A stretch of DNA of 36,461 bases from Syntrophomonadaceae bacterium (GTDB lineage: Bacteria; Bacillota; Dethiobacteria; DTU022; PWGO01), in assembly GCA_003550565.1 (NCBI GenBank), contig PUKQ01000256.1, positions 1 to 36,461 on the forward strand. The letters run 5' to 3'. Shown here piece after piece: positions 3,481-9,359 of the stretch; position 1 is the stretch's first letter; every line of letters begins with the position of its first letter. The notes below the pieces were generated by a model, which saw only the letters and a program-made list of their open reading frames with translations, did not search any database and had not been told where the DNA came from. Position numbers and translations under genes: made by a program.

Positions 3481-4554
3481 ATGTTTAGAAGTAAAAAAAG
3501 TATAATAATTTTAATTGTAGTAGTAGTGTTACTCACAGGTGGTGGATTTTTACTTTTTGGGGAGGAAGAAGAAATTGAAATTCCCCAAACGGTAGAAGCA
3601 GTTTTTATAGAGCCCCGCCCCGATATTGAGCTGGAAGATCCTTATGAGGAAGTAGATTGGAATGCATACGGGCAGCATTATGCCAACCTTCATACACATA
3701 CAAGAAACAGTGATGGTGTATACAGTGTGCCGGGAGCTATTGATGCTTATTATGAAAGGGGATATGAGATACTGGCCATAGCGGACCATAATTATGTTAC
3801 CTGGCCGTGGGAAGATTATGACCGCGACCCTGAAGAACTCGGCATGTTGGCGGTTCAGGCTAACGAGATCTCCGACACCCATCATATAGGGAGTTATTTT
3901 AATGATTTTGATATTGATGGAAGAGAATACAGTGTAATATGGGGAGGTACCGGAGAAAAGGCAGATATTAGCGAAGATGAAGTGCTGCATAAAATTGCCG
4001 AAAGAGATGGGTTGGCCGTATTTTTCCATCCCGGGCGTTATGAAAAGCCGGCAGGGTATTATGAGAAGTTTTATAAAAAATATGATCACCTGGTGGGAAT
4101 GGAGGTTGTGAACCAGCGGGATCGCTATCCCCAGGATCGAGCAAAATGGGATGATGTTTTGACCATGCTCATGCCTGAACGTCCGGTTTGGGGTTTTGCC
4201 AATGATGATATGCATGCACCATGGCACGTGGGGAACAGTTACAATATTTTTTTGCTGCCGGAGTTAACTGAAGAAAAATTCAGAACCGCAATGAAAACCG
4301 GACAGTTTTATTTTTCCAACGGTGAAGGTTCTCCTACCCTTGATGCTGTTAATGTTGACAATGATGAGGGTACTGTGTCTGTTGATGTTGATGATGTTAA
4401 GGAAATAGTCTGGATCTCCGATGGAATGGTAATAGGCAAAGGAGATACCCTTGAATTTACCAACACCGCCAATGTTGGTTCTTATGTGAGGGCGGAAATT
4501 ATAGGAGAAGAAGGAATAACTTACACCAACCCTTTTGGTGTTATTGAAGGTTAA
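3481..4554 (+). CDS. Membrane-anchored PHP-domain metal-dependent phosphoesterase
   Basis: A 357-residue protein with a single N-terminal hydrophobic segment (about residues 8-27) after MFRSKKS, and no clear cleavage site, followed by an acidic linker. The PHP fold starts at about residue 67. Metal-site motifs can be followed: LHTHT (His71, His73), ADHN (Asp102, His103), FFHPGRY (His183) and NDDMH (Asp243, His245). PHP proteins bind two or three metals and hydrolyse phosphoesters. The anchor puts the catalytic domain outside the membrane, unlike the cytosolic histidinol-phosphatase or polymerase forms. The last 90 residues look like a beta-rich C-terminal domain. The start ATG has GGAAGGAG upstream. 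The gene stands alone with its own promoter. Substrate unknown. Confidence 0.85.
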   Translation: MFRSKKSIIILIVVVVLLTGGGFLLFGEEEEIEIPQTVEAVFIEPRPDIELEDPYEEVDWNAYGQHYANLHTHTRNSDGVYSVPGAIDAYYERGYEILAIADHNYVTWPWEDYDRDPEELGMLAVQANEISDTHHIGSYFNDFDIDGREYSVIWGGTGEKADISEDEVLHKIAERDGLAVFFHPGRYEKPAGYYEKFYKKYDHLVGMEVVNQRDRYPQDRAKWDDVLTMLMPERPVWGFANDDMHAPWHVGNSYNIFLLPELTEEKFRTAMKTGQFYFSNGEGSPTLDAVNVDNDEGTVSVDVDDVKEIVWISDGMVIGKGDTLEFTNTANVGSYVRAEIIGEEGITYTNPFGVIEG

Positions 4555-6083: not shown

Positions 6084-6194
6084 AGGGTGATAAAAAAATT
6101 TAAATATTTAGAAATTATTGTAAAGGATTGTTGAGCAACATGAAGGTTGGTTTTTAGAAAAATAAAGTGCTATTATATAGAAGAGAAAGGAGAG

Positions 6195-7079
6195 ATGGTT
6201 TTGGAATTAACATTATCTGAGCTAAGAGATCGTTTTGAAGAAATAAACTACATCTGTGAAGAAGATACTGTTTTAACGGTTTTTTTGGCTTTAAAATTGC
6301 AGAAGCCTTTGTTAATAGAGGGTGCTCCGGGGGTTGGGAAAACGGAGATGGGAAAGGCCCTGTCCCGGGTTTTTGGAGTGGATCTCATCAGACTGCAGTG
6401 CTATGAAGGCTTGGATGAGAACAAGGCCCTTTATGAATGGAATTACCAGAAACAGTTGCTAAAAATTCAGATGAGCAAGGAGATGGGCAAAGAAGAAATT
6501 AGCGAGAAAGAATTATTTTCCAGGGAATACTTACTGGAAAGGCCTTTACTTAAGGCTATAAGTTCACCCGAGAAAAATGTATTACTCATCGATGAAGTGG
6601 ACAAATGTGATCATGAATTTGAAGCTTTTTTGTTTGAGGTTTTATCTGATTTTCAGGTTTCCATTCCCGAACTGGGAACGGTTAAAGCTTTAAAAGTACC
6701 CATGGTGGTATTAACCAGTAATAGTGAGCGGGAGCTATCGGATGGTTTGCGCAGGCGCTGTATTTATCTTTACCTGGACTTTCCTTCTGTTGAGAGGGAA
6801 ACGCAAATCATAAACAAAAAAATACCGCAGGCAGGGCAAAAACTTTCTAACGAAATTGCCCGGGCAGTAAATTATCTGCGAGAGAATCAGCATATTAAAA
6901 AGAAACCCTCCATTGCGGAAACCCTTGATTGGGTCGGGGCATTGGTTTCACTGCACCGGGATCGGTTGGAAGCTAAACTATTAGATGATTTTTTGGGACT
7001 GCTCCTAAAATCAAAAAGAGATCAAGAAATATTTCGGGAAGAAATCGGCGCAGAAAATTTAATTAATAGTATTCGCTAG
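6195..7079 (+). CDS. MoxR-family AAA+ ATPase
   Basis: A protein of about 294 residues carrying one AAA+ domain. Walker A is GAPGVGKTE (residues 43-51), Walker B is LLIDEVDK (Asp133-Glu134), and a sensor-like TSNSERELSDGLRRRC follows with its arginine-finger region. MoxR ATPases act with a von Willebrand A partner to remodel or insert metal into target enzymes. That partner is the next gene downstream. The ATG at 6195 lies only two bases after GGAG (6189-6192); the in-frame TTG at 6201 has an eight-base spacing and may be the real start. A weak promoter (TTGGTT 6147, TATTAT 6171) lies just upstream. The pair resembles CoxD/CoxE of aerobic CO dehydrogenase maturation. Confidence 0.88.
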   Translation: MVLELTLSELRDRFEEINYICEEDTVLTVFLALKLQKPLLIEGAPGVGKTEMGKALSRVFGVDLIRLQCYEGLDENKALYEWNYQKQLLKIQMSKEMGKEEISEKELFSREYLLERPLLKAISSPEKNVLLIDEVDKCDHEFEAFLFEVLSDFQVSIPELGTVKALKVPMVVLTSNSERELSDGLRRRCIYLYLDFPSVERETQIINKKIPQAGQKLSNEIARAVNYLRENQHIKKKPSIAETLDWVGALVSLHRDRLEAKLLDDFLGLLLKSKRDQEIFREEIGAENLINSIR

Positions 7080-7195
7080 TGGTTGAAATTAGCGCTAAAA
7101 TACAGCTGAAAGAAGGATTGAAAGGTTATAAAGTTTTTTTATAAGAAGGATTAAGTTAATGATTAATTTTGGGTTATACATAGAACATATATGAG

Positions 7196-8563
7196 GTGTT
7201 CGAACTGAAAGGAAGTAATGTTTTAGAAGATCAAAATTTAGAGAATCACATTGCCAACTTTGTTTTTTTGCTGCGGAAACAGGGGGTTCGAGTAGGGACA
7301 GCGGAATTGATGGAAGCCTTGGAAGGGGTTTCTGTCGCCGGCCTAAAAGATCGTGAGGCTTTTAAAACTGCTTTGCGAGCTACCTTAATCAAAAAAGCAC
7401 CTGACTTTGAGGTTTTTGAGCACACGTTTGAAAAATATTTTTTGCCTTCTAATGAGCAAAAAAAAGAGTTGCAGAGGGGCTGGGAGTGTGAGGAAAAATA
7501 TATTGAGTGTCTGGAGAAAGCAGATAATGAACTTACTTTTAAAGGGGAAAAGCTAGACCTTGCGGAATCCGAAAAAGTCGTATTTGCTTCCCTCCCGGAA
7601 AAAGAACAAAACAAAATAAAACAGTTTGTCTCCGAAACAGAACTGGGCAAAAATGTAGAACCAGAATTCAAACCTATCCTGGAAACTACAGTGAAAAGCT
7701 CACTGCGATATTGGCGAAATCGACAGGAAAATACTATCCAACGCCCGCCATCAATCACGGGGGATTCTGGCTGGGACTGGATGCTTGCAGGCAGCAGTGC
7801 GGGAGGTGCGGGAGGGGGCTCTTCCGGTAATGGAATCAGGGAACTTGATATGAAAAATATTACCGATAAGGATGTCCCGGAAGCTGCCGAATTGATCCGC
7901 AAAATGACCCGGCGCCTTATTTATTCTCTTTCCCGGAGGTATCGGATCAGTAAAAAGAAACGAGAATTGGACCTGCGGCGGACTATAAGGGATAATATCA
8001 GCTATGGAGGTTATATTTATCATCTTCGCTACCGAGACAAGAAGAAACAGAAATTGCGTTTACTGTTGTTGTGTGATATTTCAGGTTCTATGATACGCTA
8101 TACGGGTTTTATACTGCCTTTTATTTATGGTTTAAACTCGGTAGTTAGCGATTTAGAAAGTTTTGTGTTTGCAGAAAACCTTGAGAAAATTAGTGGCTCT
8201 TTGGAAAGAGGTGCTTCTTTCGAAGAAGCGCGAAAAGAACTGCTAAAAAAAAGTAGGGAGTGGGGCGGCGGTACCAGACTGGCAATAGCGCTGGAAACTC
8301 TTATGCAGGAACATGATGAGTTGCTTACGCCTAAAACCATAGTAATTATAGTTAGTGATACCCGCACTACTTTGTTAGACGAGGCTCTGCGCAGGATGGA
8401 AAATGTGCATGATCGGGTGAAAGATATAGTTTGGTTGAACACCTTGCCCCCTGAGGAATGGGAAGAACTTCGGTCGGTTTCTTCTTTTCAGAAATTAACC
8501 AGAATGTATCCGTGTAACCGGCTTGCTGATTTAGAACATGTTTTGGAAAAGAAGATATTTTAA
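7196..8563 (+). CDS. CoxE-like von Willebrand factor A domain protein
   Basis: A 455-residue protein with a helical N-terminal region, a Gly/Ser-rich hinge at about residues 199-212, and a C-terminal VWA domain of the CoxE type. The MIDAS metal site is intact: D-I-S-G-S at 294-298, Thr360 in GGGTRLA and Asp388 in VSDTRT. VWA proteins of this class pair with MoxR ATPases and present substrates or stabilise complexes through a bound Mg2+ or similar ion. The upstream moxR gene ends 116 bases before. The start is uncertain: GTG 7196 has only a weak site (GAGG overlapping it) and no better in-frame start codon follows soon. The N-terminal half has no domain I can name. Confidence 0.85.
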   Translation: MFELKGSNVLEDQNLENHIANFVFLLRKQGVRVGTAELMEALEGVSVAGLKDREAFKTALRATLIKKAPDFEVFEHTFEKYFLPSNEQKKELQRGWECEEKYIECLEKADNELTFKGEKLDLAESEKVVFASLPEKEQNKIKQFVSETELGKNVEPEFKPILETTVKSSLRYWRNRQENTIQRPPSITGDSGWDWMLAGSSAGGAGGGSSGNGIRELDMKNITDKDVPEAAELIRKMTRRLIYSLSRRYRISKKKRELDLRRTIRDNISYGGYIYHLRYRDKKKQKLRLLLLCDISGSMIRYTGFILPFIYGLNSVVSDLESFVFAENLEKISGSLERGASFEEARKELLKKSREWGGGTRLAIALETLMQEHDELLTPKTIVIIVSDTRTTLLDEALRRMENVHDRVKDIVWLNTLPPEEWEELRSVSSFQKLTRMYPCNRLADLEHVLEKKIF

Positions 8564-8603
8564 TGATTTAAGATTATATCAAAAAAGAGAGGAGTTGTTA
8601 ACA

Positions 8604-9359
8604 GTGACAATAAAAATAGCTGTGGCTGGAAAAGGAGGAACGGGGAAAACTACACTTGCAGGATTGTTAACCCGTTACCTGGTGAATAAATATCCCGGTA
8701 AATCAATCCTTGCGGTTGATGCGGATGCTAATGCCAATTTTAACGAGGTTTTGGGAGTGGAGATAGAAGATACTGTGAGTGAGATACTTGCAGAGGTAAA
8801 AGATCCCAAGGCAGTGCCTACCGGGATGACAAAAGATACGTTTGTGGAGTATAAATTGGGATCTTCCATGGTAGAAACTGAAGCTTATGATCTTTTGGTC
8901 ATGGGTAACCCGCAGGGGCCGGGATGTTATTGTTTTCCACTGGATTTGCTGCGTAAGTACATTGAAAAACTAGCTAAAAATTATGACTATATGCTTACAG
9001 ATAACGAAGCCGGATTAGAGCATTTAAGTCGGCGTATTATTCCGGCCATGGATCATCTGCTGGTTACCAGTGATGCGACCACACGGGGGTTACGTTCAGC
9101 GGGAAGGGTCCGGGAAATAATAGAGAGTGTTGACATTGATGTAGGAAAAATGTCGTTAATTATCACGCGGGGAAATGAAGATCAGGTGCAACAATTAAAG
9201 AGTGAGATTGAACAAACTGGCATAGAGCTTTCAGGAACCATGCCTTATGATAGCTTGATTCCGGATTATGACGCCAAAGGAAAACCCTTGGTGGAATTAC
9301 CTGCTGACTCGATAGCTTCTCAGGCGGTGGAAAAATTATGCCGGGTACTTGGCATATAG
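8604..9359 (+). CDS. cooC: CooC-type nickel-insertion ATPase (MinD/ArsA superfamily)
   Basis: A 251-residue P-loop ATPase with the deviant Walker A GKGGTGKTT (residues 9-17). Two signatures mark the CooC family: the C-x-C motif in GPGCYC (Cys108, Cys110), which binds nickel or zinc across the dimer, and DNEAGLEHLSRR (from Asp133). CooC proteins deliver nickel to the C-cluster of anaerobic CO dehydrogenase (AcsF for acetyl-CoA synthase). The start is GTG 8604, nine bases after GAGAGGAG; an in-frame TTG at 8595 directly abuts that site. It follows the VWA gene by 40 bases and is probably co-transcribed with it. No CO dehydrogenase gene is in the window, so the client is inferred. Confidence 0.9.
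   Translation: MTIKIAVAGKGGTGKTTLAGLLTRYLVNKYPGKSILAVDADANANFNEVLGVEIEDTVSEILAEVKDPKAVPTGMTKDTFVEYKLGSSMVETEAYDLLVMGNPQGPGCYCFPLDLLRKYIEKLAKNYDYMLTDNEAGLEHLSRRIIPAMDHLLVTSDATTRGLRSAGRVREIIESVDIDVGKMSLIITRGNEDQVQQLKSEIEQTGIELSGTMPYDSLIPDYDAKGKPLVELPADSIASQAVEKLCRVLGI

Follow-up and report, generated by a model that had tools for sequence, protein, structure and literature searches.

A MoxR–VWA–CooC gene trio as a candidate accessory unit for acetyl-CoA synthase in Wood–Ljungdahl anaerobes

A MoxR-family ATPase gene, a gene for a CoxE-like von Willebrand A (VWA) protein and a CooC-type ATPase gene lie in one run in the window, the whole 36,461-nt stretch of Syntrophomonadaceae DNA analysed here. 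We regard it as an evenly balanced proposition that this trio is an accessory unit for the acetyl-CoA synthase (ACS) of the CO dehydrogenase/acetyl-CoA synthase (CODH/ACS) complex and that its CooC is, judging by sequence and tree position, the nickel ATPase of the acs operon, moved out of that operon to the moxR–VWA genes. As such the trio would probably be a nickel-loading and remodelling kit for ACS, the core enzyme of the ancient CO2-fixing Wood–Ljungdahl pathway. Four observations point this way: the gene order, the subfamily placement of the CooC, its relocation and, in two of the three groups surveyed, the co-occurrence of the VWA gene with acsB.

The trio and the relatives of its MoxR–VWA pair

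The three genes are intact neighbours, all on the forward strand, which bears out the preliminary description of a MoxR and a CoxE-like VWA gene ahead of CooC at 6195-9359. The features are as follows.

6186..6192, + strand: ribosome-binding-like site of moxR, AAAGGAG, read from the sequence
6195..7079, + strand: MoxR-family AAA+ ATPase, CoxD-like, 294 aa (PF07728 AAA_5, 5.9e-12)
7196..8563, + strand: CoxE-like VWA-domain protein with MIDAS, 455 aa (PF05762 VWA_CoxE, 6.6e-37), its precise start being uncertain
8588..8594, + strand: ribosome-binding-like site of the CooC gene, AGAGGAG, read from the sequence
8604..9359, + strand: CooC/MinD-type ATPase of the acsD-adjacent (acs-operon-internal) subfamily, 251 aa, assigned from motifs and tree

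The MoxR sequence carries Walker A (GAPGVGKTE), Walker B (LLIDE) and sensor (TSN) motifs, and in the MoxR of 15 relatives Walker A, Walker B, sensor 1 and the arginine motif are invariant. In the VWA protein the MIDAS residues are DISGS at 294-298 (D294-x-S296-x-S298), T360 and D388; the DxSxS-T-D set is invariant in 16 relatives, indicating a complete MIDAS. The CooC has a Walker A motif, GKGGTGKTT, and the CxC nickel motif as CYC at 108-110. We place its start at the GTG at 8604 because AGAGGAG lies ahead of it; the open reading frame called from 8538 has an overlong start. A scan for promoters and terminators gave sites no commoner than in shuffled sequence. Elsewhere in the window are a penicillin-amidase family protein (49-2184; PF01804, 612 bits) and a CehA/McbA-type PHP metallohydrolase with an N-terminal membrane segment (3481-4554; 72.8 bits, below the cut-off of 80).

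Of the 30 best VWA loci in the class to which the window's genome belongs, 23 retain the order MoxR–VWA–CooC, and they do so across families. The same order occurs in 32 of the 80 loci that came from named genomes (Dethiobacter, Syntrophaceticus, Sporomusa, Thermincola, Desulfallas, Desulfotruncus and uncultured Bacillota). Chance neighbourhood of the three genes was therefore rejected. MoxR adjoins VWA in 72 of the 80 loci, and two further loci have this CooC nearby on the opposite strand. Among the carriers of the pair is the acetogen Sporomusa ovata DSM 2662 (L093). VWA genes without MoxR occur in the Desulfoscipio phylum (L100, L111, L112, L115, L117 and L119) and may be a different branch. 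Seven loci (L060, L061, L069, L075, L082, L094 and L121) hold a second, diverged MoxR–VWA pair 4-6 kb downstream of the first, with about 52% (MoxR) and about 26% (VWA) identity; its MoxR forms a clade of its own.

The analogy with CoxD and CoxE drawn in the preliminary description is borne out in part. MoxR is 52% identical over 251 aa to the protein encoded directly after coxL on plasmid pHCG3 of Oligotropha (Afipia) carboxidovorans, CoxD, and the VWA protein is 28% identical over 403 aa to the product of the next gene, CoxE. As in that aerobic Mo-Cu CO dehydrogenase system, in which CoxD contributes to assembly of the Mo-Cu cluster (PMC3471820), the MoxR and VWA genes are adjacent and in the same order, and by sequence the window's genes are a MoxR–VWA pair of the CoxDE-like type. 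Unlike coxD and coxE, however, they are followed by a CooC-type ATPase gene, their hosts are anaerobic Wood–Ljungdahl organisms and no cox structural or accessory gene lies near any relative; coxM, coxS, coxL, coxF, coxG and coxI homologues were sought and none was found within the window or any locus examined. NorQ and NorD, which serve FeB insertion into nitric oxide reductase, likewise pair a MoxR AAA+ protein with a MIDAS VWA partner, and for NorQD a twisting of the partner that lets iron into the reductase has been proposed (PMC13036017). In the predicted model of the window's VWA protein (pLDDT 80, pTM 0.50) the N-terminal part is helical and the C-terminal part is a VWA domain; in this single-chain prediction the best fold matches of the domain, over about 250 columns, include the midasin MIDAS and NorD of NorQD (9qhe; TM 0.53 by target, E 7e-5). 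The NorQD system differs in client and metal, the VWA protein here is shorter and there are no nor genes. Solved structures searched by sequence with MoxR and VWA returned distant AAA+ and VWA domains only. An identity with MadB and MadC (NCBIfam) was rejected, the scores of 262 and 90 bits being far under the curated cut-offs of 475 and 600, and the literature gave no lead for that reading.

Two CooC subfamilies and the acs operon

The preliminary description had called the CODH enzyme absent. This holds for the window, but the same genome carries a CODH/ACS operon on another contig, C266, in the order cooC-acsA-acsB-acsC-acsD-acsE-metV-metF. That operon (L004) has no acsV, the corrinoid activator gene, between acsC and acsD (9164-9238), as is the case in several relatives of the order. 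The presence of two CooC-like genes in an acs cluster has been recorded before (PMC8671834, PMC12003927, PMC9765523). The CooC upstream of acsA on C266 matches the solved CooC 3kje at 4.2e-63, the window's CooC at only 1.9e-14. In a tree of 100 CooC-like proteins, a set in which all CooC-like open reading frames have the CxC motif, a deep branch with full support separates two subfamilies. One comprises the acsA-adjacent copies together with 3kje, whose sequence is the same as that of the copy encoded upstream of acsA in G537; the other comprises the copies that precede acsD inside acs operons, within which the trio copies form a single nested clade (support 95). The window's CooC thus does not group with the solved CODH-type CooC, with which it shares the MinD ATPase type, the P-loop and CxC, and from which it also differs in gene context. 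It belongs to the clade of the operon-internal copies while lying outside the acs operon, beside MoxR–VWA. The internal copy stands directly before acsD in most acs operons; in divergent operons the same type comes after acsB. An ATPase of the ACS gene cluster, AcsF, reportedly inserts nickel into ACS, and the operon-internal CooC type is presumably this AcsF.

The acs operons examined from genomes with a verified trio lack the internal CooC in 13 of 13 cases (G000, G046, G047, G049, G060, G075, G076, G077, G078, G081, G086, G089 and G090). In contrast, of the seven genomes verified to have a MoxR–VWA pair free of CooC, six retain it in the operon (G142, G261, G190, G104, G102 and G118; G113 does not). 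By hand calculation the one-sided probability of this contrast is 7/38760, about 2e-4; despite this value, the relocation is best seen as one evolutionary move. Four genomes of the window's class (G055, G056, G068 and G093) have the pair with no adjacent CooC and none in the operon either.

MoxR–VWA is mostly unlinked to the acs operon. In isolate Ess09-15 (L120, L125) it lies directly upstream of a complete one, in the order MoxR-VWA-cooC-acsA-acsB-acsC-acsV-internal CooC-acsD; the tree row L120_trio_5931 is the CODH-type CooC of this locus, which happens to follow VWA. In G261 a single contig carries both VWA and acsB, separated by about 16 kb. As a separate observation, locus L010 (G000:C27, 1-1867) holds in one run the end of a BadF/HgdC-type activase, a 238-aa protein that matches ACS only in part (PF03598 CdhC, 41 bits) and a third CooC-like ATPase. 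Similar small CdhC-like open reading frames occur in G046, G043, G021, G033 and G034, and the 238-aa protein could be ACS-like, so far uncharacterised and served by an ATPase of its own.

Co-occurrence with acsB and CODH

A co-occurrence survey of the kind suggested in the preliminary description, scored on the VWA gene, gave an association with acsB in the Sporomusa class and the Desulfoscipio phylum and none in the window's own class; all Fisher tests take genomes as independent and ignore shared descent. Among 351 genomes of the Sporomusa class, with VWA counted at E below 1e-100, VWA was found in 13, acsB in 16 and CODH in 87. Every VWA-positive genome (13/13) has acsB and none of the 335 acsB-negative genomes has VWA (Fisher test, about 4e-21 (3.6e-21)). 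Within the CODH-positive genomes of this class alone, VWA is present in 13 of the 16 with acsB vs 0 of the 71 without (about 5e-13 (5.5e-13)). Weaker VWA matches in three acsB-negative genomes (G167, G169 and G224) were left out as partial paralogues. Across the 295 genomes of the Desulfoscipio phylum, VWA occurs in 63, acsB in 87 and both in 54 (about 1e-26 (1.2e-26)), with nine genomes having VWA without acsB. At the cut-off, 33 acsB-positive genomes of this phylum and three of the Sporomusa class have no VWA, and the pair is therefore not needed by every ACS. Some pairs are missed by the cut-off, since G574, whose AcsB is close to that of C. hydrogenoformans-like genomes and whose partial VWA match was left out, carries a diverged VWA at 28% besides its MoxR at 59% (L208). 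In the AcsB tree, VWA-positive genomes account for 36 of 59 classical rows vs 1 of 21 divergent rows. The divergent operons (L155, L156 and similar) run cooS-cooC-acsB-CooC-acsD-acsC-acsE, often with two acsB, and almost never occur with VWA.

In the window's own class (98 genomes), where acsB is nearly universal, VWA is not associated with acsB (54/13/25/6; p=1), 54 of the 67 VWA-positive genomes having acsB; with CODH the association is weak (61/6/21/10; p=0.007). Nickel CODH is carried by 47 of 50 genomes with a VWA locus. A trio in a genome without any nickel CODH had been named as a case that would speak against the preliminary description. No CODH was found in 3 of those 50 genomes, and of 45 genomes of the window's class at completeness of at least 90%, 2 have VWA with no CODH found; these touch on that case without meeting it cleanly, as the VWA gene alone was scored there, not the whole trio, in what are apparently fragmented drafts. 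Two genomes at that completeness, G011 (its VWA a fragment) and G039, have VWA with neither CODH nor ACS.

Candidate clients and a possible mechanism

The preliminary description held that the pair and CooC help nickel into the C-cluster of nickel CODH. Its broader part, that a MoxR–VWA pair belongs with nickel carbon enzymes, is likely; CODH as the client is not supported. The frequency of CODH in VWA-positive genomes, the weak CODH association in the window's class and the presence of a CooC-type ATPase in the gene run all speak for a CODH client, but the 71 CODH-positive, acsB-negative Sporomusa-class genomes are devoid of VWA, and a CooC of the CODH type is already encoded beside acsA in this genome, the window's CooC being of the other subfamily. 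We consider this reading unlikely and rejected CODH in general as the leading client on the strength of those 71 genomes. ACS is the better-fitting client because of the CooC subfamily and because VWA follows acsB, not CODH, in the Sporomusa class. The action of the pair could also be confined to the CODH component of the bifunctional CODH/ACS complex, which these data cannot separate from action on ACS. Profiles likewise cannot separate acsB, acsC, acsD and acsE, since these co-occur. This co-occurrence, together with the usual position of the internal CooC before acsD, would suit another Wood–Ljungdahl-linked client such as the corrinoid iron-sulfur protein AcsCD; the post-acsB position of the same CooC type in divergent operons and the role ascribed to AcsF in loading ACS make such a client distinctly improbable.

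Two further readings would detach the pair from the acs genes. That it is a general stress or respiratory-complex chaperone resembling RavA/ViaA, which happens to persist in slow-growing anaerobes, agrees with its usual lack of linkage to acs genes and with the few VWA-positive genomes that have no CODH/ACS, but fits poorly with the absence of VWA from every acsB-negative genome of the Sporomusa class, and we think it quite improbable. It is very unlikely that the pair serves, as a CoxDE-type unit, some molybdenum hydroxylase encoded elsewhere in the genome, with CooC as a chance neighbour: the likeness to CoxD and CoxE is as expected for such a unit, but the loci examined gave no cox homologue, the adjacency of CooC is conserved and the VWA profile follows acsB. 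A Mo-CODH unit in particular was rejected, there being no cox structural genes nearby.

With ACS as the client, we propose more tentatively, and by analogy with CoxDE and NorQD, that an AAA+/VWA machine remodels ACS and that the AcsF-like ATPase then builds or repairs its Ni,Ni-[4Fe-4S] A-cluster; the physical interaction, the client's identity, the insertion of nickel and the mechanical step are all points that we infer. A MoxR hexamer would hold the VWA protein threaded in its pore, the MIDAS site of the latter would grip ACS and ATP-driven twisting would open it, whereupon the CooC-type ATPase could load nickel into the A-cluster. Alternatively, opening may reset a mis-metallated A-cluster, and repair or reset fits equally well. 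ACS is conformationally mobile (PMC12289521). Recombinant CODH-ACS has been made in E. coli with CooC1 and without MoxR–VWA (PMC12289521), so that the pair can be no more than an aid, perhaps when nickel is scarce.

The link between a MoxR–VWA remodeller and ACS appears not to have been described before: the open-access papers searched yielded no relevant one tying MoxR to CooC/CODH or Wood–Ljungdahl, or ACS to von Willebrand, although this does not prove absence. Cellular assembly of the dinuclear nickel A-cluster of ACS is understood only in part. If our reading is correct, a widespread MoxR–VWA pair associated with ACS would supply a missing remodelling step, the metal-insertion principle of such pairs would extend to nickel, and a handle would be gained for active CODH/ACS expression in engineered CO2- or CO-fixing strains. 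A gene pair that is annotated only generically thereby gains a testable function.
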